DNA of 64,000 nt from Escallonia rubra (taxonomy: Eukaryota > Streptophyta > Magnoliopsida > Escalloniales > Escalloniaceae). A program made the position numbers and the translations under genes. This document shows, in pieces, positions 12,532 to 51,664 of this stretch. The stretch covers positions 186,001 to 250,000 of the forward strand of contig JAVXUO010002765.1 in the NCBI GenBank assembly GCA_033065855.1. The letters are read 5' to 3'. The stretch's first letter is position 1, and every line of letters begins with the position of its first letter. The notes under the pieces were generated by a model. That model did not search any database and had not been told where the DNA came from. It was given only the letters and a program-made list of their open reading frames with translations.

Positions 12532-13339
12532 AACGGTGATGCCAAGGAAAGTGGGTTCGTACTTACGTGGAGGTGCCACAAAGGCTACAGTCCGTGTCAA
12601 CTTCCAAGTATGCAAAGTGAGAGACATCAAGGACGGAGTAAGGGCTGAGAGCAAGGCTTCCCAGACAGGCCGTGAGGAATGACAGTGCTGCGAAGGCAAA
12701 GCTAAGATGAACAGGGCCGGCAGTCGATAGTCCAAGTCATGGTCCAACGTTATGATCTTAAGTTATGTCCAACTTTATGTTTCTCTCTCTAGAATCCAAG
12801 AGCTCTCCAATTCTAGAGTGAGAAAGTGATTTTGGTGAGAACGAAGAAGCCCTTTTTTGAGTTGTAAAGTTCACTATTTATAGGAAACAGTGTGCTTATG
12901 TCATAAAGTGCCACATGTCTTCCCCTGGGAGTGACACGTCACCAGGGGGTCCCAAAATACTGGTTCTCCATTGGATTGCCGGTTCCCAAATTCGCGTTGC
13001 CTACCTCGCACAACGTCGCTCTACCTGTCTGAGAAGACTGACCATACCATGACGACATGATCAGAGTAAACCCATTGCCCCAGCCACCAATCCAAGCCCT
13101 TACTGAATCCCACGAGGTGCGTCGAGAGACGCGTAGAGAACCTGACAGCGGTGAGGGTTGCCACTGTAGCCAACTGCCAGGCGAACTAGGCGCGATGCCC
13201 TCTGAGGACCTGCTCCTGTCCCGGAGTGACCCGTGGGTCATTGTTCTGGTGGTGTCGACGATTGACAGTAACATGAGTGGACATGGTCACAGCTCAATGC
13301 TCAGAGTCCGCTGTGAGGGGTCCTCGTGCCGGAGCCCCC

Positions 13340-13725
13340 CGTGATTGAGACGGCGATGGCTATAAGGTTATGAGCCCATCCCGATATGAGGGCCAAAGCC
13401 CCCCCTTGTGATTGAGACGGCGATGTCTATAAGGTTGTGAGCCCATCCCGGTACGAGGGCCGAAGCCCCCCCTTTTGATTGAGACGGTAATGTCTATAAG
13501 GTTGTGAGCCCATCCCGGTACGAGGGCCGAAGCCCCCCTGTGATTAAGATGGCGATGGCTATAAGGTTGTGAGCCCATCCCGGTACGAGGGGTGAAGCCC
13601 CCCTTTGATTGAGACGGCGATGGCTATAACGTTGTGAGCCCATCCCGGTACGAGGGCCGAAGCCCCCCCTTTGATTGAGACGACGATGGCTATAAGGTTG
13701 TGAGCCCATCCCGGTAGCATGCAAC
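13340..13725. repeat. Minisatellite 1 of copy 1, about 66-bp unit
   Basis: The phrase gagcccatccc recurs at 13372, 13439, 13506, 13571, 13636 and 13702, a period of 65-67 bp. Each unit also carries gattgagacggcgatg and aagccccc. The minus-strand frames here are repeat artefacts. Confidence 0.9.
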
Positions 13726-13734
13726 ATGATTGTG

Positions 13735-14170
13735 GTGCATGGGCGCGGTGCCTATAGCACGAGACAATACCTGGTGCCGGGGGTACATGTTACGAAAGTG
13801 GCGCGGTGACAATCGTCGCGAATCAATACTTGGTGCCGGGGCACGTATCATGACGATGGCGCAAGGGCACGACGACGAACGTCGCAGAGTAATATTTGGT
13901 GCCGGGGCATGTATCATGAGGATGGCGCGCAGGCGCGGCGACAAATGTCGCGGATCAATAGTTGGTGCCGGGGCACGTATCATGAGGATGGCACCCGGAC
14001 GCGGCGACGAATGTCGCAGAGACAATACTTGGTGTCGTGGGCATATGTCATGGAAGTGGCGCACGAGCGCGGCGACAAATGTTGCGGAGACAATACCTGG
14101 TGCCGTGGGCACATATCATGAAAGTGGCGCACTAGCGCAGCGACGAACGTCGCGGAGACGGCGCACGGGC
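13735..14170. repeat. Minisatellite 2 of copy 1, about 65-bp unit
   Basis: About six units carry tggtgccggggcacgtatca and a gcggcgacgaatgtcgc block. CpG density is very high compared with the AT-rich surroundings. Frames on both strands stay open because the period is divisible by or near a multiple of three. Confidence 0.85.
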
Positions 14171-14354
14171 GCGCGTCGGGTGTCCCAAAGACGGGATGTG
14201 AGCTGAGTGTACCTGTCATAACAAGATAATGAATGCAACATGTAGTAATGACAAAGTTGGGAGTGGTGGTATGCGGTCGTCGGTGACGGGTCATTCGGCG
14301 GTAGCGCGTGACTTCGGGCGATGGGAATCGCGGGAGCGGTGTGCGGTCACGGAC

Positions 14355-14645
14355 GACGGACGTCACGAGGTTGATGCACGACGGACATCACGAGGTTGAT
14401 GGACGACGGACGTCACGAAGTTGATGTACGACGGACGTCGCGAGGTTGATGTACGAACGGACGTCGCGAGGTTGATGTACGAACGGACGTTGCGAGGTTG
14501 ATGCACGATGGACATCGCGAGGTTGTTGCATGACAGACGTCGCGAGGTTTATGCACGAGGAACGTCGCGAGGTTGATGTACGAACGGACGTCCGGAGGTT
14601 GATGCACGACGGACGTCGCGAGGTTGATGTACGAACGGACGTAAA
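14355..14645. repeat. Minisatellite 3 of copy 1, about 23-27-bp unit
   Basis: At least ten units of the form gacgtcgcgaggttgatgta occur, with variants of the terminal bases. Each contains the palindrome gacgtc or a close variant. A gaggccaaggcca-type short repeat follows at 14690-15110. Confidence 0.9.
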
Positions 14646-15401
14646 CATCGGGGAGGTGCAAAGACTCGAGAAAACAAGTGCACGCGGGAGGGGAGGCCAT
14701 AGGCCAAACATTGGGGGGAAGGCCAAGGCCACCACCCCTGGGGAGGCCGAGGCCGAGGTCGACCCTAGGGGGTGGCCAAGGCAAAAGGCCAACTCCCATG
14801 AAGGGAGGCCAAGGCCATTCCCCCCTTCGATGAACTTCGGTCGCGCCGACGGTAGGTGTTTCGATGAGCAATGGCAAATCCAAAAGTTGTGTTACAACGA
14901 GCGTGTCGACGTGAATCGTACCCATGTGACAAATAAGGTTCCAAGGTTATGTACGAAGCATACGAAACAAAAAAAGTGCGAAAAGGACTTTGCGCAAAAA
15001 GTGAAGAACCGAGGGGGAAGGCCAAGGCCAACCCCATGGGAGGCTGAGGCCGACCCCATGGCCTTGGGGGAAGCTGAGGCCGACCCCATGGGGTTGGCCA
15101 AGGCCTTTGCCCCTTGACCCCGTTGCTCCGGTTGCGCCGTCGGTCGACATTTTTGCTGAAAAGGTGTTTGGGTGGTCTCGGCATGACGATCGTGCTAGCG
15201 TGAGTGACGTCAACATGAAATAAATCATGCCTAAGTCGCGCACAAGGCGCGCGGAGTGAAAAACGCACGTGACTTGAGCGTGCGCACGCTGATTAGTACG
15301 ATGCGTTGGAAAAAAGCACGTTGTATCTGTCGACGTGTTTGCGTGAAGCGGGACCCCTAGTGGGCCCTTGGGTACGACCAGAATAGGTTGGGAACAAACG
15401 G

Positions 15402-15512
15402 TTAAATAGGAAGGGATATAATAGAGAAAGAGAGACGATATGAACGGTTAAATAGGAATGGGTAGAATAGAGAGAGAGAGAGAGAGAGTGTGTGTGTGTG
15501 TGTGTGTGTACA
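15402..15512. repeat. Duplicated flank and GA/GT microsatellite
   Basis: The phrase aacggttaaatagga occurs at 15397 and again near 15440, followed by ga repeats (about 15470-15487) and gt repeats (about 15488-15509). The 5' flank of copy 1 (agacgatgtgaacgg, ending 12536) matches agacgatatgaacgg at 15432-15446, so the target was already repetitive. Confidence 0.75.
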
Positions 15513-17170
15513 TTTGAATGGTATCTGACGAGCTAGGTCTTATTTGATTAGGTGATCCCGCTCGTTGCGCCGGTTAAAAGCCAATCAGATAAGGATAATG
15601 CAATTCCTTGTATGCTAAGAATTGATTCGCTTAGCATACCTGTCGTCGATGATCTATGCAGAGACTGTTGTGTTGTTTTAATGAAATGTTGACAATTATT
15701 GATAACCAATATTTCTCCTATTTAAGAATGCTGTTGAGGACTTCTGATAAATTTTCTCCCAAGTCTGCCCTGTTGTTAAGTCGTAACGCGGTTAGGGACA
15801 AACATTCTATATGAGTTCCCTTATTGATGACAGTGTCTCTTCTAATTACATGAGACTTAGATGAACACCCCATATAATGGGACATCAAAATGAGGATGGC
15901 CTGTAAAATTTGATCACTGGCAAAAAGGAGGTATGGCGCTAAAGTCTGTCATGTGTGGTCGAGTCTAATCTGAGTCTGCATTACAATTGAATATTTATTC
16001 AATGTTAATGATTTTAATTACTTGTAATTCATTGATGTTTACTTTTGTAATTTTTAATTTAATCTCTACGTGCATACTTAGTCAGTTCGTCTTGTCCATG
16101 AAGAGGTGACAATAATGTTGTTCTATTGCATCCAATGAAAGAAAAAGATCGTTTGAATGAAAGAAAAAGATCGTTTGACAATTTACGTTGATGCTGAGCT
16201 TATTATTAAATTCTTAATTCACTTTTTGGCGTTGAGATGATCATTATTCCTCCGTTACTTCCTAATAACTTGTACACGATGCTTCTCGTGTTGTTTTTAC
16301 TGGGCGGTTTGCGCTCATTCCTTATCTCTGTTGTATCAGGTTATAAGATTGATTAAGGAGAAACTTCTAGGAAGGGAAAAGAGAAATTGCTCAAAGGCAT
16401 AGAGAAAGACATAACACGGTAACAACCGTGCTTTTGGTCGTTGATATTGTTGTGCTAAGACTTCCATTGTATAATGCTAGATGTTTTGAAGAAACTTTTT
16501 GTAAGGATGCATTTTGAGGTTTATGTAACTAGAGTTGGTCTGTATTCCGCACAGAGTTATGATGTGATTATGATAGACAACTCAACTCGGTTGGTGTCAC
16601 CAGGGTTGAGGCCAGGGTGTCGCAAGTTGTCTGGCACTAAACTTAAACAAGCTCAACTATCTAAATAGACCCAAACCTAAACCTCTTATAGCACCTACCT
16701 CTTGCCCCTCCAGTCTCAGCTCATGCATTATTCTCACCCTCCCTGCTCTCTTGCATCTTGCATCCTTGTGTGTCATAAGACCAGCCACCCACAGGTTCAT
16801 ACGTGGCTTCTCTGCCATCTTATCAAAATGACCACAACATTTTAGCGACTTTAATGGCCTCGTGTTCCTCTGGAGTACATGCCACCCGATACACACAAAA
16901 GCAAGATGGTTATGAGCAAAAAGAATCAAAAGACTCGAGTAGAAACCAAATAAGCCACCACCTTGAGAGTTAACACCATTGTACTTCAAGGTAACATCCC
17001 TAAGGCTTGCATAATCTCAGTGATGAAGAATTAATTTGCCTTTGAACTCCATGAAGAATATCCTCCCTCCCCTCATCTTGAAATGCCAACAAAAGGAAAG
17101 ACGATAAAGGAAGCCTCTCCTCTCAAACGATCTCTTGCAAGTTCAGGCCACATAATTTTGCCGCAGATGT
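15513..17170. other. No gene seen; one 22-bp tandem duplication
   Basis: A perfect 22-bp tandem duplication (aatgaaagaaaaagatcgtt plus tg) lies at 16134-16155 and 16156-16177. Otherwise the stretch shows only short frames without recognisable domains. Confidence 0.45.
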
Positions 17171-17177
17171 CTATTTG

Positions 17178-20230: not shown

Positions 20231-20255
20231 GCCAATCAATTATCTCTATAAATTA

Positions 20256-20663: not shown

Positions 20664-20752
20664 ACTTGGGTACGAACGTTGAACTTGAATTCTTGCAACA
20701 GCCATCAAAATATACCCTCAGAGAAAGAGAAAGAGAAAGAGAAACAAATAAT

Positions 20753-20950
20753 ATGGCGCCTTTGTGTGGTGAGGAGGAGACGGAGTTGGGAAGGCAGCAA
20801 GCCCCCGGGGCGTGTCCATACTGCGGAGGGAAGGTGCAAGCGGTGGATGTGCAAGGCAGGTCGAGGTTCTGTTTTCTACCCATTTGCCTCATTATCAAGA
20901 GGAAGTATCTCTGCACTCTTTGCTCCAGACGTCTGGTCTTGTACTCATAG
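20753..20950 (+). CDS. Zinc-ribbon-like microprotein, paralog 1 (65 aa)
   Basis: The product has 65 residues and no intron. A short acidic N-terminus (CGEEETELG) leads into RQQAPGACPYCGGKVQAVDV, then a basic C-terminus with KRKYLCTLCSRRLVLYS. Cysteines at 21, 24, 54 and 57 form two CxxC knuckles suited to one zinc ion; C40 and C45 are also kept in all three copies. I know similar short CPYCGG...CTLC proteins in plants, but no function can be named. No signal peptide or membrane segment is visible. The ATG at 20753 was chosen because the TATA box lies at 20655 and because homology with the other two copies starts just downstream. The frame remains open upstream only by chance. It lies in unit A of the duplication, 215 bp downstream of a MITE. 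Confidence 0.85.
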   Translation: MAPLCGEEETELGRQQAPGACPYCGGKVQAVDVQGRSRFCFLPICLIIKRKYLCTLCSRRLVLYS

Positions 20951-22654
20951 ATCATGTGCTTTCACATGCTTCTCTTTGTCTTTCCGGTTTATCTATAGAC
21001 TCGCCTGTACTCTCTAATCCAGACTGTAATTTGGCTGTAAAAAGTCTGATCTAGCTAGTAAAGGGTTAGCCCAGTTATTACAAGAAAATGGGTCCTAAAG
21101 TGTTGGACCCCTTCACTTGTCAAAATCTTGCGGTAACATTAGTTTTGAACGTTTGTCATTTGATCTTGGCTCACCGTTGTGATACCTAATTTCTTTGATG
21201 CCCTCAAAGACTTGCCCTCCACTTTGCTCTAATTATTATTTATTATGAAAGTAATACAATAGAAAGATGAACCTGTGGCTTGTACGGATAGTTATCAACC
21301 CAGCTCACGGGTATAACGTACATTACGACTGTATTTTCTCAGTGATAACGAAGCATAACTTGTAATGATGTACGCTAGGTTGGTGCACTTAATTGCGTTT
21401 CCGACGTTAATTCACTTTTGTGGAGATCAACAAAAGTAACGGTTCATATTTCATTATTGATTCATTTACGTTTCTTTAACACAGTTTTTTTTTTCTTCCC
21501 CGAAAACACTTTCAAAAAATGTGAAGTAAAATTCAGCAGTATAGCATTGTTGAAATATAAGCTTTTGCATAAACGATAATCTCCCCACGTCAGCTAATAA
21601 GACGCATAGAATGAAGAAACCCGTCTTTGGTAGGAGAATTGCGGTGGCCGGTGGAGTTTGCCGCAAGTGGAAAAGAAACGTGTTTGGTAACAAGATGTTC
21701 ACTTTTGGGCTTGGTTTCAGGACAAAAAAAACTAGGTGATCAATTTTCTTCCCTTTCTGGTCTAAATGTAGCCTATTAAGTTTGGGTAATCTTTTGCTCA
21801 AAAAGTTCTATATCAATTCAATTTGTAGATTACTGCTAGATCATCTGTTACAACGTTATTAAATTACTAATCAAACCCCTAGTTATGTGAGAATTGAACT
21901 TTTGACAGGAGCTCAACAGTTCTTTTCTGACAAGTATTTATCTACCTACATAGTTTGCAATTTATCGAAAGCTTAAACAAAACCAACATCTTCCAAAGAG
22001 GATTAGGAACCAAAATGTGGAGGATAATCACATCATCTTGATTTCTCTCAAATATCATAAGCAAGACAATTTTCAGACACAAAATCGTATTGAAGTTAGC
22101 ACAATCTTTGCCGGAACTTGTTGACAACAAAAGGGGCATGGTAAAGCATGCCAAGAAGAGCATACGTCGGCGTAATCTTTCACTTCAAATGATGTCCTTG
22201 TCTCTCTGTGTCAAGATTTCAATATATCTTTCCGATCATTCTCGCTTTTCTAACCTCTCCAAATGAGATACTTAAGCACCACCCAAAACGATCTGTAAAA
22301 AGTATTCTCAATCTACGAGTCTGTGTTTCCTTCTCTTTTTGTTGATTTTAGATTGAATCACTCAGGGGCCGCTTGATGACGTTCTCGTTTCTTGATTCTT
22401 GATCATTTTTTGTACAAAGAACAGAAACAAAAAGAGAATGAGTTTTGTATATCTGTTCTTGCTCTTCTTCTTCTTTCCAGGACTATTCTCAGTTTTGGGC
22501 AAATAATGATAAAAAAAACTTGTTCTCGTTCTCGTAATGGGATTCCCGGAACACAGGTGTCCATCTTTGAGTTAAGTGATGTTCAATCATCAAACTATTT
22601 TAGAAGCATATAAACAAACATCCTATATAACCATACCCAACCAATCCCACCCCC

Positions 22655-23720: not shown

Positions 23721-24919
23721 GGGTAAATTACACTAAATACCCCTGAGGTTTTACGTAATTATATTCCACTACCACTATCTTTAAAAATTACACTCAGTTC
23801 AAAAAGTAAATTTTTCTCTTACGGTGTTAATGGTGCAATGCAAAAAGACATGAATGCCCCTCAGACTGTTTTCTTGGAATTTTGGAGGGAAAACTTGTTT
23901 TTGAGAATTATTGGAGGGACTTCCCCTGTTTCTGCCTTCTTCTTCTCTCCCCCTGAGCCCCACGGCCGCAACAGCCCCTTGCCCCGCCGCCCTTCCTTCG
24001 GTATCTTACGCCGGCACCCTACAGCGCCCCTTCCCCCTCAGTGACGTCAACCCCCTTCGTCCTTCTTCTTCTCTCCCCTTGTCCCCCGCGGTCGCAACAA
24101 CCCCTTGCCTCGTCGCCCCTCCTGCAGCATCTTAAACCGACGCGTCACTCTCCGCTGACAGCGCCCCTTCCCCCGTTGGCGACGCCGACCCCCCTTCTTC
24201 TTCTCTCCCCTAGTCCCCCGCGGTCGCAACAGCACCTTGCACCTCCTGCAACATCTTAAACCGACGCCTCACTCTCCGCTGACAGCGCCCCTCCCCCGTT
24301 GGCGACGCCGACCCCCTTCTTCCTTCTTCTTCTCTCCCCTCGTCCCCCGCGGTCGCGACAGCCCCTTGCCCCGTCGCCCCTCCTGCAGCATCTTAAACCG
24401 ACGCCTCACTCTCCCCCGACAGCGCCCCTCCCCCCTGTCGGCGACGCCGACCCCCCTTTTCCTTCCTCCTTCTTCTCTCCCCCCGCAGCCGCAACAGCCC
24501 CTTGCCCCTCCTTTTGCATCCCACGCCAGCAGGGTCCCTCCCCCCGTCGGCGCCGCCCTTCCTTCCTCTTATCGCAGCTGCAACAGCACCGCGCCGCCGC
24601 CCGCCAAACCCATTAGCTTTTAGATTCAACCCTAATCTTCCTTTTTTAATTGTTTTGACCAAAATGCCCTCCTTGTTTGAGTTAAGATGATCACACATGT
24701 GAGTAAAGGACAAAGGAGGGGGGGGGGGGTATTTTGGGTATGGAAATTGCATAAAGTGATGTGTCAAGGAATCTTTCATGGAGTTGGGCTTGCTGTTAAA
24801 TGTATGTAGTTGTGTGTAATGCGGGTACAAACCTCAGGGGGACGGAGTGTAATTTTTAAAAATAGCGGTAGTGGAGTGTAATTACGTAAAACCTCAGAGG
24901 TGTTTAGTGTAATTTACCC
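23721..24919. mobile_element. Mutator-like element with 75-bp inverted ends and GC-rich cargo
   Basis: The left end gggtaaattacactaaatac and the next 55 bases are nearly complementary to the right end 24845-24919. Both carry cctgaggttttacgtaatta and the ttaaaaattacactc block. Long inverted ends of this kind are typical of plant Mutator-like elements. The flanking sequences attTGTTA (left) and atttttttGTTA (right) fit a target duplication altered in the T-run. Unit A has no insert at the corresponding place. Instead of a transposase the inside holds a GC-rich tandem array, so it resembles a Pack-MULE that picked up GC-rich sequence. Confidence 0.75.
23930..24600. repeat. GC-rich tandem array (about 137-bp unit) inside the Mutator-like element
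   Basis: The phrase cagcgcccc recurs at about 24022, 24159, 24283 and 24420, giving periods of 137, 124 and 137 bp. Each unit holds cttcttcttctctcccc, cccgcggtcgcaac, cagccccttgcc and gcatcttaaaccgacgc. Several overlapping proline/serine/leucine-rich frames are by-products. The source sequence is unknown; it could be part of a captured gene, but no domain is recognisable. Confidence 0.85.
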
Positions 24920-25275: not shown

Positions 25276-25345
25276 CTTGGGTTTGAAGGTTGAATTCTTC
25301 CAACAGCCATCGAGATACAGAACCAGAGAAAGAGAAAGAAAGAAT

Positions 25346-25543
25346 ATGGCGTCTTTGTGTGGTGAAGAGGAGAGGGAGTTGGGAAGGCAGCAAGCCCCCG
25401 GGGCGTGTCCATACTGCGGAGGGAAGGTGCAAGCGGTGGATGTGGAAGGCAGGTTGAGGTTCTGTTTTCTGCCCATTTGCCTCGTTATCAAGAGGAAGTA
25501 TCTCTGCACTCTTTGCTCCAGACGGTTGGTCTTGTACTCATAG
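25346..25543 (+). CDS. Zinc-ribbon-like microprotein, paralog 2 (65 aa)
   Basis: This copy has 65 residues and differs from paralog 1 at about five positions (P3 to S, T10 to R, Q35 to E, S37 to L, I48 to V). All six cysteines (21, 24, 40, 45, 54, 57) are kept, with CPYCGG and CTLC knuckles and the same KRKYLCTLCSRRLVLYS end. The 5' leader again has gagaaagagaaag just before the ATG. The start was chosen for the same reasons as paralog 1. The 3' flank stays alignable for more than 500 bp. Preservation of the frame and cysteines while flanks differ suggests it is or was functional. Likely nuclear or cytosolic; no targeting signal seen. Function unknown. Confidence 0.85.
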   Translation: MASLCGEEERELGRQQAPGACPYCGGKVQAVDVEGRLRFCFLPICLVIKRKYLCTLCSRRLVLYS

Positions 25544-26929
25544 ATCATGTGCTTTCACATGTTTCCTTTTGTCTCTCCAGTTTATCTATAGACTCGCCTG
25601 TACTGTCTAATCCAGATTGTAACTGGCTGTAAAAAAGTCTGATCTAGCTAGTAAAGGGTTAGCCCAGTTATTACAAGAAAATGGGTCCTAAAGTGTTTGA
25701 CCCCTTCACTTGTCAAAAACTTGCGGTAACATTAGTTTTGAACGTTTTGTCATTTGGTCTTGGCTCACCGTTGTGATACCTAATTTCTTTGACCTCAAAG
25801 ACTTGCCCTCTACTTTACTTTAATTATTATTATTAGATAGATTAGTATAACAGTAATGCAATACAAAGGTGAACCTGTGGCTTGTACGGATAGTTATCAA
25901 CGCTCATAACGTACATTATGGCTGTATTTTCTCGGTGATAACGAAGTATAACTTGTAATGATGTATGCTAGGTATCACTTGTAATGATGTACGCTAGGTC
26001 GGTGCACTTAATTGCGTTTCCGGCTGTAATTCACTTTTGTGGAGATCAACTAAAGTAGCGGTTCATAATTCATTATTGATTCATTTACGTTTCTTCAACA
26101 CAGAGTTTTTTTTTCTTCCCCCGAAAACATATTGATGCCAAGGAAAGTGAGTTCGTACATACATGGAGGTGCCACAAAGGCTGCAATCCGAGTCGGTTTC
26201 CAAGTGTGCAAAGTGAGAGACAGCGAGGGCGGAGTAAGGGTAGAGAGCAAGGCTCCCCAGACAGGCCGCCAGGGCTGGCAGCGCTGCGCAGACAGGGCGA
26301 CGACGAACATGGCCGGCAGTTGACAGTCCAAGTCAGGGATATAGCATCAGGGGTCTGATGTCAGAAGTCCAAATGTGTTTCTCTCACTAGAATTTCAGAG
26401 AGAATGGGTTTTTAGAGAGAGAAAGTGAAAATGTCAAATGGGAGAGCCGTCGTTTAAATGAGTTCCAAAGTCCACTATTTATAGGCAAAAGAAAGCCTAT
26501 GTCATCAGCTGACATGTGTCATCCCCTGGGAGTGACACGTCACTAGGGGGTCCATAAATACTGGTTCTCCGTAGGACTGCTGGTCCCCAAATCAGCATTG
26601 CCCTGTCCACGCAGCATCTCTCTACCTATCTGAGAAGACTGACCACACCGCAGTAGCATGATCAGATTAAGCCCGTTTCCCCAGCCACCGGTCCAAGCAC
26701 TTACTGAATCCCACAAGGTGCGTCAAGAGACGCGTAGAGAACCTGGCCGCGGTGAGGGTTGCCCCCGTAGCCAACTGCCAGGCGGACTAGACGCGATGCC
26801 CTCCAAAGACCTGTTCCCGTCCCGGAGTGACCCGGGGGTCATCGTCCTGGGGGCGCCGACAATAACCGGTAACATGAGCGGACATGGTCGCAGCTCAGTA
26901 CTTAGTGTCGTGCAAGTCACCCCAGACGA

Positions 26930-27625
26930 CGATAGCTTTGCGGTAACGAGCCTATCCCGCTGCGAAGGGTCCTCGTGTCAGAGCACTACGAGCGGAGCCC
27001 CCCGGAATGAAGACGGTGATGGCTTTGTGGTAACGAGTCCATCTCGCTGCGGAGGGTCCTCGTGCCAGAGCACTACGAGCGGAGCCCCCCATGATGAAGA
27101 CGTTGATGGCTTTGTGGTAACGAGCCCATCCCGTGGCGGCGATGGCTTTGTGGTAACGAGCCCATCCCGTGGCGGAGATGACTTTGTGGTAACGAGTCCA
27201 TCCAGCTGCGGAGGGTCCTCGTGCTGGAGCACTACGAGCGGAGACCCCCGTGATGAAGACGGCGATGGCTTTGTGGTAACGTGCCTATCCCGTGGCGGTG
27301 ATGACTTTGTGGTAACGAGTCCATCCCGCTGCGAGGAGTCCTCGTGCTAGAGCACTTCAAGCGGAGCCCCGCGTGATGAAGAAGCGATGGCTTTGTGGTA
27401 ACGAGCCCATCCCGTGGCGGCGATGACTTTGTGGTAACGAGTCCATCCCGCTGCGAGGGGTCCTCGTGCCGGAGCACTACGAGCGGAGCCCTCCGTGATG
27501 AAGACGACGATGGCTTTGTGGTAATGAGCCCATCCCGTGGCAGAGATGACTTTGTGGTAACGAGTCCATCCCGCTGCGGAGGGTCCTCGTGTCAGAGCAC
27601 TATGAGTGGAGCCCTCCGTGAGCAT
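26930..27625. repeat. Higher-order minisatellite of copy 2 (about 41-bp subunit, 122-bp unit)
   Basis: Subunits like gatggctttgtggtaacgag alternate with gatgactttgtggtaacgag. The phrase gagcactacgag recurs at about 26981, 27068, 27227, 27349, 27471 and 27595. Because 123 and 41x3 are divisible by three, the array stays open and gives a 230-residue pseudo-protein of VVTSPS repeats, which I do not accept as a gene. Confidence 0.9.
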
Positions 27626-27639
27626 GTAGTATGATTGTG

Positions 27640-28420
27640 GCTCATGGGCGCCGCGACGAACGTCGCGGAAAAATACTTGGTGCCAGGGGCACGTAGTGTG
27701 ACAGAGAGCAAGGGGGATGGCTGTATCAGTGGTGCGGCGCATGGGCACGGCTGCGTGTGAGAGTGCAGTGTGCGGGCGCCGGGAATTGCGGAGACAGCGC
27801 GTGGGTGCCAGCGACGAAGGTCGCGAAGCTATCGTGTGGGCGACGGGTGTCATGGAGACGGCGCGCGGGCGACGGGAGTCACGGCGCTATCGCGCGGACG
27901 CGGGCGACGAAAGTCGCGGAAACGGTGGGCGACGGGAGTAACGGAGTTGTCACGCGGATGCGGGAGACGAATGTCACGGAGGCGACACGCGGGCGCGGTC
28001 GAAGGGCGTCGTGAAGCCAACGTGCGGGCGACGGGAGTCACGGCGATGGTGCGCGACCACGGGCGACAGGCGCCGTGAAGCCGGTGCGTGGGCAACGGCG
28101 ACGGGCGCCGGGATGCTGGCGCGCGGCCACGGGCATCGTGAAGCCGGCGCGCGGGCGACGTGAATCGCGGCGACGGCGCGCGACCACGGGCGACGGGCGC
28201 CGTGAAGCCGGTGCGCGGGCAACGGCGGGCATCGCGGAGTGAGTGAGGTGATGGCGCGCGGGCGCGGGTGAGGGGCGCCGTTGAATAGGTGCATGGGCGA
28301 TGGTGGGCGTCGTGAAGACAGCGAGCGACGGTCGTCGCGACGACGAAGCGTGGCGACGAGCGACGGTCATCGCGACTACGACGTACGACCGCGAACGACG
28401 GTAGTCGGTCGTCAAGGTAG
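27640..28420. repeat. CpG-rich short-period repeat of copy 2
   Basis: Variants of gcgcgcgggcgacgggagtc recur with irregular spacing, with cgtgaagccggtgcg interspersed. Copy 1 has a different but similarly CpG-rich array at the same relative place. Confidence 0.8.
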
Positions 28421-28660
28421 GTGGCAGACCCCTTAAGGTGGCCGACCCCCCCAAGGTGGCCGACCCTTTTAAGGGGGAAGGCACGCCAAGGTTACTTCAC
28501 AAAGGGAAAATACACGTGACTTGATTATGTGAATGCTTTCACCGGTCTGTAAGCGTTGAAAAGTTGACGGAAGTTGACGGTTGAATGTGCCGACGTGTCA
28601 TGTGAATGGGGACCCCCAGTGAGCCTATAGGTGTAGTCAAGATAGGTAGAGAACACATAT

Positions 28661-33598: not shown

Positions 33599-33734
33599 GG
33601 AGGCCATGTGCGCGTGTTCATCAACGAAACTCACAGCTAAGTTCCCAGAATCACACCCACACACACACAGCCACACACACACTGACACGCAGTCAAACAC
33701 GCAGAAAGGAGAGAGAGGGAGAGGGGGAATACCT

Positions 33735-33938
33735 ATGGTGGGCGTATGTGGTGAAGACTGGGAGGAGAAAGAGATGGGGAGGCAGCAAGCGCCTGGGGCG
33801 TGTCCATACTGCGGTGGGAAGGTGCAAGCGGTGGACGTGGAAGGCAGGTGGAGGTTTTGTTTCCTACCCATTTGTTTCATAACCAAGAGGAAGTTTCTAT
33901 GTACTCTGTGTTCCAAACGGTTGGTCTTGTACTCTTAG
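33735..33938 (+). CDS. Zinc-ribbon-like microprotein, paralog 3 (67 aa)
   Basis: This copy has 67 residues: a distinct N-terminus (MVGVCGEDWEEKEMG) joined to the shared RQQAPGACPYCGGKVQAVDV core and KRKFLCTLCSKRLVLYS end. Cysteines lie at 23, 26, 42, 47, 56 and 59, matching the other copies with an offset of two. Conservative changes (Y to F, R to K, VI to IT) suggest selection on the protein. The flanks do not align with units A and B, so it is an older paralog. The 5' leader has CA repeats and a gagagaggga stretch. The start at 33735 is preferred over the in-frame ATG at 33606 because of the TATA position. Function unknown. Confidence 0.85.
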   Translation: MVGVCGEDWEEKEMGRQQAPGACPYCGGKVQAVDVEGRWRFCFLPICFITKRKFLCTLCSKRLVLYS

Positions 33939-34125
33939 TTTCAACCCCTGTGCATTAGGGAGGGCTTTGAATTGCTATTGTATTCAGTTTGTTTGATTTA
34001 GCTTAGCATCGTTTCAATAGTGGAAGTACTCCTTGTTCCAAAGGTTTGGTCTTGTATTCTTACTTTTAAACCCGTATGCATGTGGGTAAGGTTAAGCTAA
34101 TATCTTATTCAGTTTCTTAGAATGG
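33905..34125. repeat. Tandem duplication of the 3' end of paralog 3
   Basis: The phrase gttccaaacggttggtcttg near 33909 is repeated as gttccaaaggtttggtcttg near 34035. Downstream bases (actcttag / attcttac, ttattcagttt) also match. The unit is about 126 bp. The second unit repeats the last codons and 3' flank but has no start and no knuckles. Confidence 0.75.
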
Positions 34126-36824: not shown

Positions 36825-36825
36825 A

Positions 36826-38629: not shown

Positions 38630-39328
38630 TGTTGTGAAAATGGTTGGGAAATGGAAACGAAAAAGGCTTTGAGGCGTAGCTAAAGACACTTTCTTTATAA
38701 CGTTATTTGCCCCCACTCAAGATAGAGTTTGCTAATGGGTTGCAGACAAATTCGTTCCCAGAATACAACAAAGCCTGAGAAGAATCGCGACTAGCAATAT
38801 CGAAGATCTCCAAAAATCTTTTTGAAACAATTGTAGATAGACTTTGGGAGATTATGAGAGTATTCTAAAAAACTTTAAAACAAAATGTTTTTAGTATATA
38901 TAAAAACTGAATTGCCTAAAAATATATTTATATGGATACACAAACACCATCTGGAGATCACAGAGTAGAGGACGACATGCCTCTTCCCAGAAGTCGTCAA
39001 CAACAACAGGTGTGAATATTGTCTCTTTTACCGTTAAGGAATTGAAAATGGAATCAACCATTTTCCTTCTCCAATGGCGTCACTTCATTTCAAATGAAGT
39101 GGCAGATGCCACCGCTTCATGAAGTGGTCTGCCGTTTCATTTGAATTTGAAAGATGGCTGCCCAGGGAGTGGCCTGCTTCTCCACTCAAATACTGGTTGT
39201 TTCTCCAATCAAGTGATGGCTGTCTACTCCAGTATATAAAAGAAAAGGCAATCCACTTTAAGTTTATCAAATACCCAAGTTAATTAAATAATCAAACACC
39301 CAATGAGATTTAAGATTAAATCTCAACA
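38630..39328 (-). repeat. 3' LTR of the copia element
   Basis: It is 699 bp, with TGTTG...CAACA ends. It aligns with 43831-44567 throughout, apart from a missing stretch of about 44 bp next to gatggctgcc (near 39155) and scattered substitutions. A TATA-like tatataaaaac motif lies in the shared region. Confidence 0.9.
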
Positions 39329-39342
39329 ATCCCCCACTTTGA
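39329..39342 (-). other. Polypurine tract of the copia element
   Basis: On the minus strand the purine run aaagtgggggat directly precedes the 3' LTR, as expected for plus-strand priming. Confidence 0.8.
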
Positions 39343-40080
39343 TTATTTAATTACAAATTTCCTCAAAATCTACTAATCGGTCTTATTATGTTTTCAAGAA
39401 TGTGTTTTTCAACTTAAACCTTCCATAAGTATAAGTAACTTAAAGTCTTATCAAAGTCTTTGGTGGTCAGACCTTAAACCAAGTACTCCAGAGATAATTC
39501 CAGAATTACCATACGCAAAATAATATCTTGTTTCGGTAAAGAATTATATAAACTCACTCGACACTTTTATGGTCATGTGCTCGATCCTAGATTCATGAAC
39601 GCTCTCGAGAGTAAACTCAAATAACTGTCTTAAGAAGCGGCACCACTTCTACGTTCACAAATGTGAAGCTCTCTTGCGTCTCCGTTACTAAGAACACATT
39701 TAAACAACTCCATTAAGAGATGTACTCAACCTCTTTTAGCGTAACAGACATCACTAATTTATTAATAATTCTAGAGAGACACGTAAAATTAGTGCTAACA
39801 GTCACACTCAATCACTTGTTCTTACCCATTAAAACTCAGGGACTAGTTTTGGACTAGTAATGAGTTGGGTTACCATTATTGGTGACTAATGAATGGGTTT
39901 TAATCCTATCTCTCTAGAAGTTATTCTAACCAACTCTCGAGATAACCTGTTAGTTAGAGGGTCAGCAAAATTTTTATTTGACTTCAAATAGATGATAGTA
40001 ATGATACCATCTTTAATTAGTTGTCTTACAAAATCATGCCTCAGACTCATATGTTTGGACTTACCATTGTAAGTACTACT
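39343..40080 (-). other. Copia 3' untranslated internal region
   Basis: This lies between the RNase H end and the polypurine tract. No coding frame is seen. Confidence 0.6.
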
Positions 40081-41415
40081 TTAAGCCCTTGATAAAGTAG
40101 CTTCACTATCACAATATATTGCAATTGGCGGCATAGGATTAGGCCGCAGATCTATATCCAACAACAGATTCCTTATCGATTCGGCCTCCTTGCATGTAGC
40201 TGCTAGTGCTACAAATTCGGATTCCATAGTAGAGTGAGATATACAAGTCTGTTTCTTAGAAGCCCATGAAACAGCTCCACCGCCAAGGGTAAAAACCCAC
40301 CCTAATGTGGACTTGATATCCCATGTACTTGTAATCCATCTAGCATCGGTATATCCCTCAAGTGTACCTGGTTCTTCACTATAAAACAAACCAAGTTCTA
40401 TAATTCTCTTTATATATCCAAAAATTCTACTATTTCCTTTACAATGCTCTACACTAGGGTTACATGTAAATCTACTCAATTTACAAACTGCAAATGCTAT
40501 TTTAGGTCGTGTGCAATGCATTAAACAAATAATAGCACTAGCATACTCTAGTTGTGCCACCGGTCTTCCAAGATTTTTAGTCAACTTAATGCTAGAATCA
40601 TAAAGAGTACTAAAATCTTTGAAACCAAGATGTTGGAATTTAGATAGAATTTTCTCTACATAATGTGATTGGTAAAGAGCAAAACCCCCACTATGTTTTG
40701 TCACTTTAATACCTAAGATAGTATCAACCTCTCCTAAATCTTTCATTTTAAACTTAGAAGAAAGATACTGCTTAGTCTCATTTATGCCAATCATATTAGT
40801 CCCAATAATAAGCATGTCGTCAACATACAAACATATAATAACACTATAATCCTTAGTAAATTTAGAATTGATGCACTTATCTGCACTATTATGCTTAAAA
40901 CCGTATGACAACACACATAAGTCAAAAATTTTGTGCCACTTCTTTGGTGCTTGTTTTAAACCATACAAGGATTTCACTAGCTTGCATACTTTATTCTTAT
41001 TGCCTAGTAGAACGAACACCCTTCTGGTTGTTTCATATAAATCTCTTCATCTAAATTACAATTTAAAAATGCAGTTTTAACATCCGTTTGATGGATATAA
41101 AGATGGCATATAGATGACAAGGCAAACAAAATTCTAATAGAAGTAATCCTAGCAACATGAGCATAAGTATTCAAAATAATCTACTCCTTCTTTCTGCTTA
41201 AAACCTTTAGCTAATAATTTAGCCTTTAAGGTTTGTACAGAACCATCAGAATTATATTTCCTTCTAAACACCCATTTACAACCTATAGGCTTTGACCCTG
41301 GAGGTAAGTCAACTAGTGTCCAAGTTCCATCCGACATGATAGAGTCCATTTTATCATTAATGGCATCTTTCCAGAATGCATCATCTCTTGAAGTTACTGC
41401 TTCAGTATAGGTCAT
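40081..41415 (-). pseudogene. Copia reverse transcriptase and RNase H
   Basis: The minus-strand frame begins with MTYTEAVTSRDDAFWKDAIN and GTWTLVDLPPGSKPIGCKWV (41415-41149). It shifts through DVKTAFLNCNLDEEIYMKQP (about 41090-41030) and continues as VKSLYGLKQAPKKWH, then the catalytic YVDDM near 40830. RNase H follows with GWVFTLGGGAVSWASKKQ, STMESEFVALAATCKEAES and CDSEATLSRA, ending at 40081. The TDADW motif is changed to TDARW. At least two frameshifts and a stop mean no full-length product. Confidence 0.85.
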
Positions 41416-42730
41416 TGGATCACTGTCAAGTTAAGGAAAATATGAGTCTGATTTAAAACTATTTCTCGACTTCCTTCAACTAGGAAAACTATAAAATCAG
41501 GTGAGATAAAATCTTTACCTAAATCTTTTTCTTTCTTATGCCTTTGACTCCTCCTAGGCTCCTCACTAGGAACCATTGAATTGTCTGCGTCAAAATTTGG
41601 TTCAGTTCTTGAATTAGATACTAAATCTGATTTAGAACTTTCACCTCTAAAATCTGAGATGAACTTACATTCAAAGAATGTTACATCTCTAGATTCAACT
41701 ATCACATTTGATTCCAAATCAAGAATCCTAAAGGCTTTATTGTGTTGTGCATATCCAACAAACACTCCTTTAAGAGCTCTCGATCCTAATTTAGTTCTTT
41801 TAGGATCCGGAACTCTGTAATATGCTAATTACCCCCACACTTTTAGATATTCTAGATTAGGTTTTCTACCTTTCTAAAATTCATGAGAGTCTTATCAGAA
41901 TTCCTAGCGAGGATCCTATTGTGCACGTGACAAGCAGTTAACAAAGCTTCTCCCCACAAACTCAAAGGTAAGCCCGCATTCATAATAATACAATTAGTAA
42001 TTTCAACTAGCGTACGATTTTTTCTTTCAGCTAAATCATTCTATTGAGGTGTATAAGAGGCTGTCTTTTGATGTATAATGCCATGCTCTTCACAATAGGC
42101 ATTAAACTCATTTGAAAAATATTCTAAACATATATCAGTCTGGAAAATCTTAATCTTTTTACTGAATTGATTTTCTACCTCCGACTTATAGGTTTTGAAC
42201 ATACTAAACGCCTCATCTTTAGTTCTCATAAGATACACGTAAGTATATCTAGAGCAATTATCAATAAACGTGATGAAATATCTCTTACCACCTTTAGTTA
42301 CTAAACCATTTCATTCACATATATCTGAATGCACCAAATCTAAAAGTTCAGATTTCCTTTCTACACTTTCAAAAGGTTTCTTCGTCATATTAGATTTAAT
42401 ACATACTTTGCATTTATCAGTACTAACATGAGAACATGAAATTAAACCTAGATGCTTCATGTTTCTAATGTACTTGTAATTTAAATCTGCTAATCTACTG
42501 TGCCAAAGATTAAAAGGCTCAACAATATAAGAAGAAGCAACATTTATATCATTAAGACTGAGTTTGAACATCCCATCACAACCATATCCCTTTCCGACAA
42601 AGTTTCCGTTCTTAGACATAATTAACTTGTTGGAATAAAAAAGAACACGAAAACCTTTCTTACAAATAAGGTTAACAGAAACTAAATTCTTTCTAATATC
42701 AGGGACATGAAGAACATTAAGAAGAGTCAA
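41412..42730 (-). pseudogene. Copia gag-pre-integrase and integrase
   Basis: Reading on the minus strand: VPDIRKNLVSVNLICKKGF and LWHSRLADLNYKYI (pre-integrase zinc region), KCKVCIKSNMTKKPF, then the core with FQTDICLEYFSNEFNAYCEE and KTASYTPQ (42041-42238). The usual SDNG is altered to TDIC, losing part of the active-site context, although the Asp remains. The C-terminal part follows with MFVGYAQHNKAFRILDLESN and VIVESRDVTFFE (41765 down). A stop and shifts separate these blocks. Confidence 0.85.
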
Positions 42731-42751
42731 CGTCTTTCCAGATGTGAAGTT

Positions 42752-42964
42752 TTATTCCACGCTGCCTTTGCCAACAACCTTTGCCCTTGCTAGATTTCCC
42801 ATTTGGACCTCTTGATTATTAGGCAACTCTTCGTAGGTCTTGAAAAGAGATATGTCCTTGCAAATGTGGGCTGTAGCTCCCGAATCAAACCACCATCTGG
42901 AACTCGAAGATGAATCGGTCATATTGATTTCGGTAACCATGGCTACTAGATTCTCCTCGACCAT
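42752..42964 (-). pseudogene. Copia aspartic protease
   Basis: WWFDSGATAHICKD carries the catalytic Asp-Ser-Gly triad of retroelement proteases. The frame then runs through VQMGNLARAKVVGKGSVE before it breaks. It is separated from gag by a frameshift near 42985. Confidence 0.85.
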
Positions 42965-43006
42965 GTTTGAGGACTCACTGGTGGCTCCTTTTCCACTCTT
43001 TCGATG

Positions 43007-43805
43007 TCAGCATTCTCGCGTATAATACCCATTCTTTCCGCAAACATGACATTTACTCTTCTTTTTGTGATTGGTGTTCCTTTTAAACATGTTGTCTTCT
43101 TTCTTAACTTGAAGAGCATGAAATGATTTTCCACTAGCGGCATCAACGTAATTCGCTCTGGAATTAAATTCAGCTTCTCCCTTTTTATCTCTATTACGAG
43201 ATTCATCTTCTATACGAAGATGTTTCTGATTTTTTTCCAAAGTATACTTTTTCTCTCTATGCAACAATTTCTTCCTATAATCTTTCCAAGATGGTGGTAA
43301 CTTTGCAATTATCATACCAACTTGAAAAGATTCCGGAAGTTTTCCATCAAGTTCGCAAATTTTATTTGCAATATCTTGCAATTCGTGAACTTGGTGGAGA
43401 ATAGGTATGCCGTCTAACATGGTAAAATCATTATACTCAGAAATTAAGAACTTATTCGTACCTTCTTCTTGAACTTTATACTTACACTCCAATGCCTTCC
43501 AGATTTCTTTAGCCAAATCAAATGACTTGCAGTAGTTGTAAAGACGATCCGAAAGTGCGTTGAAAATATGGCCGCGACACAAAACTTCGTCATCGTTTTT
43601 CCTTTGTCATTCCTTCTTTTTGTTCTCACTAGCATTATCATCGTGCTCCGAAAATGGCTCGCAATTTAAAATGTAGACAATCCTTAATGATGTGAGTGGG
43701 AATTTGACTCTCTTGCCAATGACCAAAATTGCTACCATCAAATTGATCCTACTTGATGAGGTCTTGATTCATCATCTTGATAGATACACTAGTTTTCGCT
43801 TCCAT
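43007..43805 (-). pseudogene. Copia gag
   Basis: The likely ATG is at 43805-43803 (minus), and the early part has DQFDGSNFGHWQ. After a stop, a frameshift and a probable deletion the main frame covers 43582-43007, with LSDRLYNYCKSFDLAKEIWK, the DIANKICELDGKL block, LPPSWKDYRKKLLH and a zinc knuckle CHVCGKNGYYTREC. In that knuckle the conserved His of CX2CX4HX4C is Tyr, so it would bind zinc poorly. Confidence 0.85.
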
Positions 43806-43830
43806 TTTCTTCAAAATAACGTTCTAAACT

Positions 43831-44567
43831 TGTTGGGAAAATTGTTGGGAAATGAAAACGAGAAAGGCTTTGAGGCGTATCTAAAGACACTTTTGTTATA
43901 ACGTTATTCGCCCCCACTCAAGATAGAGTTTGCTAATGGGTTGCAAGCAAATTCATTTCGAGAATACAACGAAGCCTGAGAAGAATTGTGATTAGTAATA
44001 TCGAAGATCTCCAAAATCTTTGTGAAACAATTGTAGATAGACTTTGGGAGATTATGAGAGTATTCTAAAAAACTTTAAAACAAAATGTTTTTAGTATATA
44101 TAAAAATTGAATTGCCTAAAAATATATTTATATGGATACACAAACACCATCTGGAGATCACAGAGAAGAGGACGATATGCCTCTTCCCAGAAGTCGTAAC
44201 AACAACGGCGTGAAGTTGTCTCCTTTACCGTTAAGGAATTGAAAACGGATTCAACCGTTTTCCTTCTCCAATGGCGTCACTTCATTTCAAATGAAGTGGC
44301 AGATGCCACCGCTTCATGAAGTGGTCTGCCGTTTCATTTGAATTTGAAAGATGGCTGCCTTTTCCACTTTGAAGAAGCAGAAGACACATGCATGCACGGC
44401 TTCAGGGAGTGGCCTGCTTCTCCACTCAAATGATGGTTATTTCTCCAATCAAGTGATGGTTGTCTACTCCAATAAAAAAGAAAAGACAATCCACTTTTAA
44501 GTTTATCAAATACCCAAGATAATTAAATAATCAAACACCCCATGAGATTTAAGATTAAATCTCAACA
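43831..44567 (-). repeat. 5' LTR of the copia element
   Basis: It is 737 bp and matches 38630-39328. It retains about 44 bp (ttttccactttgaagaagca and onward, near 44361) that the other LTR lacks. The internal region next to it (43806-43830) does not show a clear initiator-Met primer site. Confidence 0.9.
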
Positions 44568-44573
44568 GCATAA

Positions 44574-45630: not shown

Positions 45631-45639
45631 AAAATAATA

Positions 45640-48655: not shown

Positions 48656-49330
48656 TGTAGACATCTCATTTTTGTAGGCTCTAATTTATGCCTAAACTCT
48701 CTTGGGCTTTATTTAATTACTTTGAGTCTACTTCAGTAGTCAAAGTCCAGTTAGTCCAATACACTTAGTAAGTCCAGTCAATTGGTGCTTAACCTAGGCC
48801 AGACTGGTTAGGATAGAGAGTTTGGTAGTTGGATTTATTTAAATTTAGGTTTTTATACCAATTTCATCTTAATCACGTGCATTTAATTAAAATGTAGTCT
48901 TTTCCTTCTGGAACTGGACTTAAAGTAAATTAAGGAGAGAAAGAGTTTCAGCTAATTCTCCTTTGAACCGCCTGATTCTTGCAAAAGGCTTAAATGTATC
49001 GGTCGATAAAGCATTTTGGTATTTTTAGGCTTTTTTTGTCTTATCACTTTGTGGCCATAAGGATCGCGAATGGGTCTGCATTTTTTTGTTCCCTAGGCCT
49101 CTATATAAAGAGCCCCAGGCTACCCCAAAAGGGACAGAAAAATTAGCGAGAGAAATCACCCGTAGAGGTTGTTAGTTTTTTGTGAGAGATAGATTAGCAA
49201 GATAGAAAGAGAGATACATTAGAGACCATTTGTTCATAATACTGGGGGGTACGCATCATTCTCGCATCGTACCGTGGATAATTCGGAGTTGTCGGTAAAG
49301 AGGTCCCTGTCAAGAGGTATAACTGTCTAC
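48656..49330 (+). repeat. Tat/Ogre-like LTR
   Basis: It starts TGTAGACATCTCATTTTTGT, a beginning typical of LTRs in the Tat/Ogre group of plant Ty3/gypsy elements. It carries a good TATA box at 49102. Tandem repeats directly upstream are a known feature of the 3' untranslated region in that group. The 3' boundary is uncertain, and no second LTR, primer site or coding region is seen. Confidence 0.5.
49102..49109 (+). promoter_or_regulatory. TATA box of the Tat/Ogre-like LTR
   Basis: The sequence tatataaa, in the context ggcctctatataaagagccc, is a consensus plant TATA box positioned about 445 bp into the LTR. Confidence 0.6.
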
Positions 49331-49860
49331 TTTAACTTTTTTTTTAAATGTGGATTAGAATGGTTATAGAATATATTGGAATTAAATCCCCTCCCTACGA
49401 TCGATTTTTTATCCGTGAAGAATAAAAGAAAAAGTGTTTTCATACATTTAACTAGAAGAATTGATTAGAATCCCACTTTCAGTAAAATCATAGACCAAGA
49501 TTCAAGTCGACTCCTCCAGGGTCAGAGCTTCGAGGTTTTGATCCCGATTTGTCCGATCGAGTATGTAGACCACTATGTTGTTGAGTTCAAACCAAAAACT
49601 GTTTAACTTAGGATTTGTTCTTGTTCTTATGCTTGGAAAAGAATCATAAAAGCACTAAATGAAGTACATACCAATTATGATGAGGTTTGTATCACCATCT
49701 CGTCATAAAACCATGTCCCCAAACCGAACCTCTGGTTCTGTAGATTGGATAGCCTAGTTGGATAATTAGAGTCAAGTTAGGGTTAGAATTTTTTTCTCGT
49801 TAATTAGTTTGATTAACCTTAAAATAGGATGACGACTCGAGAAACCTGTCTTTCAAATTC
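49331..49860. other. No gene seen
   Basis: AT-rich sequence with no recognised repeat or domain. Confidence 0.4.
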
Positions 49861-50097
49861 ACGTCGTTGCAATGAGGATGATCATACGCCAATAGAAAAT
49901 TCAAGGATGGCAAGCTCTTTGTCCCCTCCTTCCACTTCAGCAGCAATAGGCACCCTTTACTTCTTCCTACTCTTGCTAACGTCGTTGCAATGAGGATGAT
50001 CATACGCCAATAGAAAATTCAAGGATGGCAAGCTCTTTGTCCCCACCTTCCACTTCCGCAACAATAGCCACCCTTTACTTCTTCCTACTCTTGCTAG
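49861..50097 (+). repeat. Tandem duplication, unit 118-119 bp, with signal-peptide-like frame
   Basis: Two units start acgtcgttgcaatgaggatg, at 49861 and 49979, and are over 95 percent identical. In each, a plus-strand ATG (49907 and 50025) opens a frame with an N-terminal stretch MASSLSPPSTSA followed by a hydrophobic TLYFFLLLL. That is the shape of a secretory signal peptide. Confidence 0.85.
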
Positions 50098-50129
50098 TCG
50101 CACTATCAACACGAGTATGTAATAAATAA
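50025..50129 (+). CDS. Putative signal-peptide exon remnant
   Basis: The 34-codon frame MASSLSPPSTSATIATLYFF, then LLLLVALSTRVCNK, ends in a stop at 50127. The sequence gtatgt after cacga would also fit a 5' splice site, so this could be the first exon of a secreted protein gene that has lost its remainder. The minus strand is open too, so the hydrophobic run may be chance. No mature domain was found downstream. Very tentative. Confidence 0.2.
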   Translation: MASSLSPPSTSATIATLYFFLLLLVALSTRVCNK

Positions 50130-50688
50130 TAGACCCATTACATGTAATTGGATTAAATCCCATTGCGTCGTGTTGGAATAAATCCACTAATTATCGTGAT
50201 GAACGTGTGTCTTTGCTGCGAGCCACAAGAAGTCTTAATCCTGGTATATTATGTTTAAACCTTTGCTAATCATAGTATCAATGACGCTAAAGCTGTTGCA
50301 GACCTGAGAGCATTTTTGTAATCTTGTCTACCTAACAGCTCTAATAATCAATGCCTCTACCTCAAAGCTAGGCATGCGGGCCATAAAAATTGACAACGAG
50401 CATGGGGAGGTCACCACGTTATAAGGGAAAGTGCACCAAGCTCAAAATTAATTTGTTAGGGTTAAAGTACGAAAAATGGGCATCGCCATGAAGGACATCA
50501 TAATCAGAAATATGGGGGCTATCTAAAGTTATTCCAGCATGGTTCCCGAAAGAATCAAACATGAACCCAGCAGTGGAGCCATTACATGTGTCCATTGTTA
50601 GCCGTTAGTAAGACCTCCATATCATGTAAGCATTTGTGAGAAACATCTTTTAAATAGTGGCAATGTTTTGGCTAGTAATAAGGTAATG
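50130..50688. other. No firm gene
   Basis: A stop-free minus-strand stretch without ATG near 50600-50430 reads NGSTAGFMFDSFGNHAGITL and more. I do not recognise it. Confidence 0.3.
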
Positions 50689-51664
50689 TTCATGCCAAGG
50701 AAGTGGGTTCACAGTATACGTGGAGATGCCACAAAAATGCATCCTGAGATAGAAACCAAGTGTACTGATGTGGGACATAACAAGCATAGAATAAGGGCAA
50801 AGACCAAAGTTTCATAAAAAGAACCTGAGGAATGGCAAAGCAGCCAGGATGAAGGCACATAGTGAATACACAATGATAGTCACTAGTCCAATCTTAGGTT
50901 CAGTGTCAGGGTCCCGTGTGTTTCTCTCTAGAATTCTCGAGCTATGAAGTTCTAAAGTTTTAAAGTGATATTTGAAATGAGTTCGATTCTCCTAATAATG
51001 AATTTTCAAGTGGTTGAGAAGGTGATGTTATCAAGCGACGCGTGGTGTTCCCTGTGAGTGACATTTCGTCGAGGGAATCTAAATGCTCGTGCTCCATAGA
51101 CTATTGGATCGCTTATTCATGCGGCTTGCACCGCACTGCTTCATTCTATATGTCTAGAAAGACTAGTTCACATTGGCCAAAGAACCCCTTGATCTAATCA
51201 TCAGTCCAAAGACTTTATCGAGTCTTAAAGAGGCATCGAGAGACATAAGGAACCTACCAGTGGTAGGGAAGGCTTGATGTCAAACTACCAGGTAGACTAG
51301 CATTGATGCGCTCCAGAGACCTGTTTCTGTCTCAAAAAGATCTGGCCAGCATGTCCCTAGGGGTGCCGATGAAGAGCCTTCAGTGCCAGAGTGCATAGAC
51401 TAGTCATGTAGACACTTAGACGGAGATAGTAACCCTGAGAAGTTGCCCATTTCGTAGGCGAGTTCTTGTGTCATAGCACTCAGACCACGCCAAGGTAGTA
51501 TCTAGGCGAAGTTGCCTACCTAACGGGCTGAGGTAGTGTCTTGAAGGAGTAACCTAATCAATACGCCAAGGTAGTGTATCGGAGGAGTTTCTTACTCGAC
51601 AGGCCAAGGTAGTGTGGTGAGAAAAGAGTCCTCAATGCTAGAGCACTTGCGTCATAGCCCGAAC
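50689..51664 (+). mobile_element. GC-rich LTR-like family, copy 3, decayed and truncated
   Basis: It matches copies 1 and 2 from catgccaaggaagtgggttc onward, through tttctctctagaatt, the ccctgtgagtgacat block and the ctccagagacctgtttctgt block, and ends in degenerate repeat units (gcactcagaccacgccaagg, aaggtagtgt). CpG sites have largely decayed to TG or CA. The far end is missing, and the sequence runs into gypsy LTR-like sequence at about 51665. Confidence 0.7.

Follow-up and report, generated by a model that had tools for sequence, protein, structure and literature searches.

A 64,000-nucleotide stretch of the Escallonia rubra genome (hereafter the window; C127:186001-250000 of an assembly of 566 Mb in 3222 contigs) contains three islands, designated copies 1 to 3, which very probably derive from a single kind of retrotransposon. 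The best explanation for all three is a Ty3/gypsy element of the Tat clade and Ogre subclade, present in high copy number, with copies 1 and 2 as solo long terminal repeats (LTRs) and copy 3 as an old LTR that has been truncated, all lying on the minus strand. A first-pass annotation had described the islands as an LTR-like, possibly undescribed family without visible coding capacity. Their LTR-like character was borne out by paired copies and protein domains of a gag-pol element elsewhere in the genome; the absence of coding capacity was not, as interiors with gag-pol, with gag-protease, and with gag alone are all found between LTRs of this one subfamily. The GC-rich islands of this AT-rich genome are accounted for as LTRs, with their orientation corrected. 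The islands and their target duplications, with the LTR assignments at the strength given above, are as follows:

12537..15396, minus strand: copy 1, 2860 bp, solo LTR with TG…CA termini inside a target duplication; array type A, units of 65-67 bp
12532..12536, no strand: AACGG target duplication of copy 1, one side
15397..15401, no strand: AACGG target duplication of copy 1, other side
26133..28655, minus strand: copy 2, solo LTR of a second subfamily (87/123-bp units); 2523 bp
26128..26132, no strand: CATAT target duplication of copy 2
28656..28660, no strand: CATAT target duplication of copy 2
50690..51664, minus strand: copy 3, fragment of an old LTR from the 169/131-bp-array subfamily that lacks its 5′ portion

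Solo LTRs in the window

On the plus strand, copies 1 and 2 start with TGATGCCAAGG and finish with GGGAACA/GAGAACA. Both are enclosed by perfect 5-bp target duplications (AACGG/AACGG and CATAT/CATAT), each of which has a probability of 1 in 1024 of arising by chance at a given place, assuming equal base use. Recomputation reproduced the annotated coordinates, ends, and duplications of these two copies. Each consists of a single LTR within a target duplication and without internal sequence, as expected of a solo LTR, and comparison of the interiors of four paired elements (C1603, C2003, C54, and C487) with the window yielded a single match of 33 bp, located inside copy 1. Identity between the 3′ part of copy 1 (772 bp) and the LTRs of C289, C1603, and C2003, all of them paired elements, was 91-93%. 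Solo LTRs of this kind would arise when the two LTRs of an insertion recombine with each other.

Copy 3 had been annotated as sharing the start of the other two; it begins instead with TCATGCCAAGG at position 50690, and its far end is absent. Its GC content is 0.451 and its CpG observed/expected ratio is 0.57; these values and the missing end are what would be expected of an old copy. Over about 800 alignment columns it was 66-68% identical to most LTRs of the 169/131 subfamily, and array units could be matched up to position 51612.

The GC content of copies 1 and 2 is 0.557 and 0.604, compared to 0.405 for the whole window, and their CpG observed/expected ratios reach 1.08 and 1.14. Such values (GC of 0.56-0.60) could also be produced by cellular CpG islands or by independent minisatellites unconnected to transposon ends. 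That explanation has a negligible probability, however: the TG…CA ends, the target duplications, the many dispersed copies, and the interiors flanked by a primer binding site (PBS) and a polypurine tract (PPT) all speak against it, and the paired copies by themselves contradict a CpG-island reading. Rfam and tRNA scans of the window found nothing.

Paired copies across the genome

Initial searches with the LTR heads returned 3381 candidates when copy 1 was the query and 3755 when copy 2 was (40 scored each; the two sets probably overlap). The exact 26-base LTR head occurred 1206 times in the genome and the exact 29-base PBS-LTR junction 373 times, while the reversed pattern of either was found 0 times. 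Among 100 listed of the 1206 heads, 19 had the exact PBS junction, and 12 of these had an exact-head partner; 69 fell in neither class, which is an upper bound for solo LTRs in that list. Junction places for closer inspection were chosen by hand from the plus-strand places among 100 listed of the 373. Ten were fetched, and eight yielded two complete LTRs. C316 and C666, in which the second LTR was incompletely found, were left out of the pair counts, although the single C316 LTR was kept in the array and tree comparisons; C2262 was left out of the pair analysis.

Together with C1603 and C2003, this provided ten LTR pairs with heads 6.0-13.5 kb apart. Perfect 5-bp duplications flanked eight of them (C54, C161, C373, C469a, C469b, C487, C825, and C2003), or seven of nine independent pairs, given that C469a and C469b have common flanks; the duplications of C289 and C1603 matched in 4 of 5 bases. 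A PBS of the form TTTTGGCGACTC(C/T)(G/A)(C/T)TGGGGA and a PPT-side motif CAG(G/A)GGGCTTA were found in all ten pairs. The pair C2003, for instance, has LTRs of 2862 and 2731 bp, a CATTA duplication, the PBS TTTTGGCGACTCTGCTGGGGA, and the PPT-side sequence CAGGGGGCTTA. Two more solo copies were recovered, one with a perfect duplication (C2087, CACAT/CACAT, LTR of 2738 bp) and one matching in 4 of 5 bases (C836, GTTTT/ATTTT). Target duplications are hence upheld outside the window: they were perfect in eight of ten pairs and in one of the two further solo copies, and the other three matched in 4 of 5 bases.

Orientation of the LTR and position of the arrays

The sense strand of the LTR, reading TGTTC…GGCATCA, is the minus strand of the window. 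The TATA motif TATAAATA was found on the sense strand, as set by the PBS, in 22 of 23 LTRs (2 from the window and 21 from the genome), 327-360 bp from the LTR 3′ end. It was antisense in 0 of 23, and a plus-strand promoter was rejected on this count. The TATA boxes annotated near 12871 and 26477 had consequently been read in the wrong direction; the motif lies on the minus strand, and the element runs opposite to the orientation assumed. Since TATAAATA is some 350 bp short of the 3′ end on this minus-strand reading, the tandem arrays belong to U3 and precede the promoter. The LTR layout is TGTTC…, U3 with its arrays, TATA, R-U5, and …CCTTGGCATCA, represented in the window by the following features:

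12875..12882, minus strand: TATAAATA of copy 1, R-U5 between here and 12537
13328..13716, minus strand: array A of copy 1, promoter-proximal U3, about 6 units of 65-67 bp
13800..14159, minus strand: array B of copy 1, U3, 5.4 units of 66 bp
14353..14642, minus strand: array C of copy 1, distal U3, 11.4 units of 25 bp
26476..26483, minus strand: TATAAATA of copy 2
26924..27621, minus strand: promoter-proximal U3 array of copy 2

In copy 1, Tandem Repeats Finder (TRF) reported arrays with units of 67, 66, and 25 bp; in copy 2, it reported units of 87, 36, and 123 bp together with longer multiples and short irregular units. These agree with the annotated units of 66, 65, and 25 bp in copy 1 and of about 122 bp in copy 2, but the 41-bp unit annotated in copy 2 was not reported by TRF. 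Nor were the arrays of each copy entirely different, as had been proposed. Copy 2 contains stretches of about 42 bp that resemble the units of copy 1 (two at 76-79% to unit A, one at 86% to unit B), and copy 3 has a match to the 169-bp array seen in a sister subfamily. Arrays made up 41% of the LTR on average, in LTRs of 1,558-3,657 bp, and exceeded the non-array LTR in CpG observed/expected ratio in all seven LTRs checked. An extra 36-bp array of 5.3 copies was present in the internal region of C1603, near its 3′ LTR.

Coding content and clade placement

In sense orientation, C2003 encodes Retrotrans_gag, aspartyl protease, RVT_1, and RT_RNaseH domains, and in antisense orientation a plant mobile domain (PMD) open reading frame (ORF; PF10536, E 1.2e-13). 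Its integrase match (rve) was partial, with an E value of 0.0034, below the Pfam cut-off, so that the gag-protease-reverse transcriptase (RT)-RNase H-integrase order of Ty3/gypsy elements is seen in C2003 with a sub-threshold last member. C2003 seems to have lost sequence downstream of RNase H, where the frames of other copies are much longer. At C304, a copy-1-type LTR with PBS begins at 11520, and an RT occupies 7100-8455 (minus strand), 3.07 kb inside the LTR; past RNase H, the frame stays open and includes an additional RNase H domain (RVT_3, E 1.4e-17). The position of the additional RNase H between RNase H and integrase was pieced together from two copies, C304 and C2003. A whole-genome RVT_3 search, in which 150 of 4550 candidates were scored, returned none at the listed RT places. 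As a separate observation, 47 of 61 listed RT matches (60 scored of 10998 candidates) had no stop in the matched stretch.

A published account (Neumann et al. 2019, PMC6317226) gives an additional RNase H between RNase H and integrase as a mark of Ogre and Retand, and reports the PMD in 57% of Ogre elements and Transposase_28 in 23% of Retand. The additional RNase H after RNase H, together with the PMD ORF, argues for an Ogre-type element. TRP28 (PF04195) was not found in 10 scanned frames of C2003 and C1603, where the PMD was present instead.

Gag-pol and gag-only forms coexist in the genome. The interior of C1603 gave gag, protease, and PMD matches and no RT match. The interiors of the eight PBS-junction pairs (4.2-5.1 kb) yielded gag, with no sign of RT or PMD at an E value of 1e-8; one of these gag frames was open over 610 amino acids. 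TR-GAG elements are LTR-flanked elements that carry gag without pol, as do these interiors. The solo LTRs might stem from a self-standing, nonautonomous, TR-GAG-like family that resembles the autonomous element; the gag-only content of all eight pairs, which include C289 with its copy-1-type LTRs, and the intact gag frame would fit this idea. We regard it as unlikely, because LTRs close to copy 1 also surround gag-pol (C2003) and gag-protease-PMD (C1603) interiors, and heads of the copy-1 type lie about 3.05 kb from RT at C304, C1376, and C2978. Unlike TR-GAG elements, copy-1-type LTRs flank gag-only and gag-pol interiors alike, which looks like one mixed family rather than a separate one.

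Array type and LTR phylogeny

The promoter-proximal array ended 734-987 bp from the LTR 3′ end. Its unit measured 65-67 bp in copy 1, C289, C1603, and C2003; 87/123 bp in copy 2; and 169 or 131 bp in C54, C161, C373, C469, C487, C825, and C316 (for C825_3, the script chose a different array in the unit-type listing). On a tree built from the 3′ 760 bp of the LTRs, the four unit-type labels required 3 changes, which is the minimum possible. Support was 100/99 for the type-A clade, 100/99 for copy 2 with L017, and 100/100 for copy 3 with the 169/131 set, within which copy 3 sits on a long branch and deviates in base make-up. Seven unlabelled members of the A clade had 2-9 unit-A matches each, and L017, which adjoins copy 2, had 8 matches to the copy-2 unit and 0 to unit A.

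Because the labels fit the tree in the minimum number of changes, we conclude that the promoter-proximal unit type is inherited with the LTR, by subfamily. Such inheritance would be expected if retrotransposition copies the U3 array of the 3′ LTR into both new LTRs. Copy-specific promoter-proximal arrays, as put forward in the first-pass annotation, were rejected on the same evidence; copy specificity does apply in part to unit number and to the distal 25-bp array. Distal arrays are gained and lost within subfamilies.

Changes of unit number within insertions

Unit A was counted 6 times in copy 1 and, for the two LTRs of each pair, 13 and 9 times in C289, 5 and 4 times in C1603, and 6 and 5 times in C2003. 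LTR pairs diverged by 1.0-5.1% outside the arrays, and all ten differed by an indel of at least 10 bp. With C469b treated as a duplicate of C469a, the nine independent pairs held 27 such indels, 23 of them in arrays (binomial 3e-6, given 41% array content); a laxer array definition placed 26 of 27 within arrays. Thirteen of the 27 were whole multiples of a local unit of at least 20 bp, compared to 5.0 expected by permutation (0 of 20,000 permutations as high), and counting 6-bp units as well raised this to 15. Array divergence in C487 was 11.0%, compared to 3.6% outside the arrays, reflecting either turnover or misalignment.

C469a and C469b (L028-L029 and L030-L031) are gag-only elements that lie 29.5 kb apart, with identical 8-bp flanks and an AAGGT target duplication. 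They represent a segmental or an assembly duplication and are copies of one insertion or of one allele. Their 5′ LTRs have the same length, but one 3′ LTR is 131 bp longer than the other, the size of a single array unit in these elements, which speaks for unit change after insertion. Slippage or unequal exchange could alter the unit number at that stage.

By analogy to the U3 repeats of retroviruses and of Tnt1, the promoter-proximal array is probably a repeated upstream regulatory sequence. Nearly as probable as its opposite is the alternative that the arrays are neutral, unselected, and without a regulatory role. Neutrality would fit the variation of unit sequence among subfamilies, the inconstant unit number within one and the same insertion, the irregular occurrence of the distal 25-bp array, and the many indels that do not correspond to whole units. 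Against this, an array is found at a similar place upstream of the TATA motif in all three subfamilies and in the decayed copy 3, which suggests long retention. It is conceivable, if improbable, that the U3 array acts as an evolvable promoter module, in which unit number would shift after each insertion and replacement of the unit type would found LTR subfamilies, both tuning expression.

Several observations fit less well with the overall interpretation as solo and truncated LTRs of an Ogre-type element with subfamily-inherited arrays. Exact TATAAATA was missing from one of the 23 LTRs (C487_3). Array C matched copy 1, C289, C54, and C161, which belong to two clades, and is thus off the tree; it had no match in C1603, C2003, or the remaining LTRs compared. 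Fourteen of the 27 larger indels were not whole units of at least 20 bp. Copy-1-type LTRs enclose interiors of three kinds, gag-pol (C2003), gag-protease (C1603), and gag-only (C289), so that each solo LTR could have come from a parent of any of them. The putative Ogre placement derives from domain order and the PMD and not from an RT tree with named references, and the pairing of the PBS with tRNA-Arg, a further trait of that subclade, is putative.

Other elements in the window

A Ty1/copia element occupies 38630-44197 on the minus strand; its two LTRs (38630-38997 and 43831-44197) are about 368 bp long, and its copia RVT_2 and gag frames are in separate pieces. An element of about 1.2 kb at 23721-24919 has 78-bp terminal inverted repeats (91%) around GC-rich tandem repeats of 126-137 bp; it looks like a nonautonomous DNA transposon that also holds a minisatellite. 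A short sequence resembling a gene, with a CPYCGG motif and additional cysteines, is present in three copies (20720-21019, 25313-25612, and 33708-34007), the second and third being 93% and 64% like the first; no Pfam family exceeded the cut-off in the two of the three that were scanned. A DUF4283 frame lies at 57595-58122, presumably as in plant LINE-like elements.

Comparison with known systems

The element is of a known and ordinary kind, and its fast-changing repeats are mildly interesting. Its many copies, with paired LTRs serving as internal clocks, constitute a system for measuring the rate of promoter-repeat change after insertion. No description of this LTR family was recognised in the literature searched, which is a weak negative. 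Elements of the Ogre subclade of Tat Ty3/gypsy (PMC6317226) likewise have an additional RNase H after RNase H, a PMD in an extra ORF, and TG…CA LTRs, but the accessible part of that account does not mention kilobase arrays inside U3 as found here. Retand (Vicient 2025, PMC11963269) shares the Tat clade, an antisense ORF between pol and the 3′ LTR, tandem arrays, and nonautonomous forms. Its LTRs are shorter, however (315-1,194 bp versus 1,558-3,657 bp), its antisense ORF is TRP28 rather than the PMD, and its arrays were sought in the internal region, so that any arrays in LTRs would have gone uncounted, whereas those described here are in U3. The soybean element Gmr9/GmOgre (PMC3305785) is also of Ogre type and associated with minisatellites, but these would appear to be outside the LTR, in the stretch that separates it from the coding part. 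Tandem repeats in U3 are known from Tnt1 and from retroviruses, for which a regulatory role has been proposed (PMC3601003); compared to these, the arrays of the Escallonia element average 41% of LTRs of 1.6-3.7 kb.

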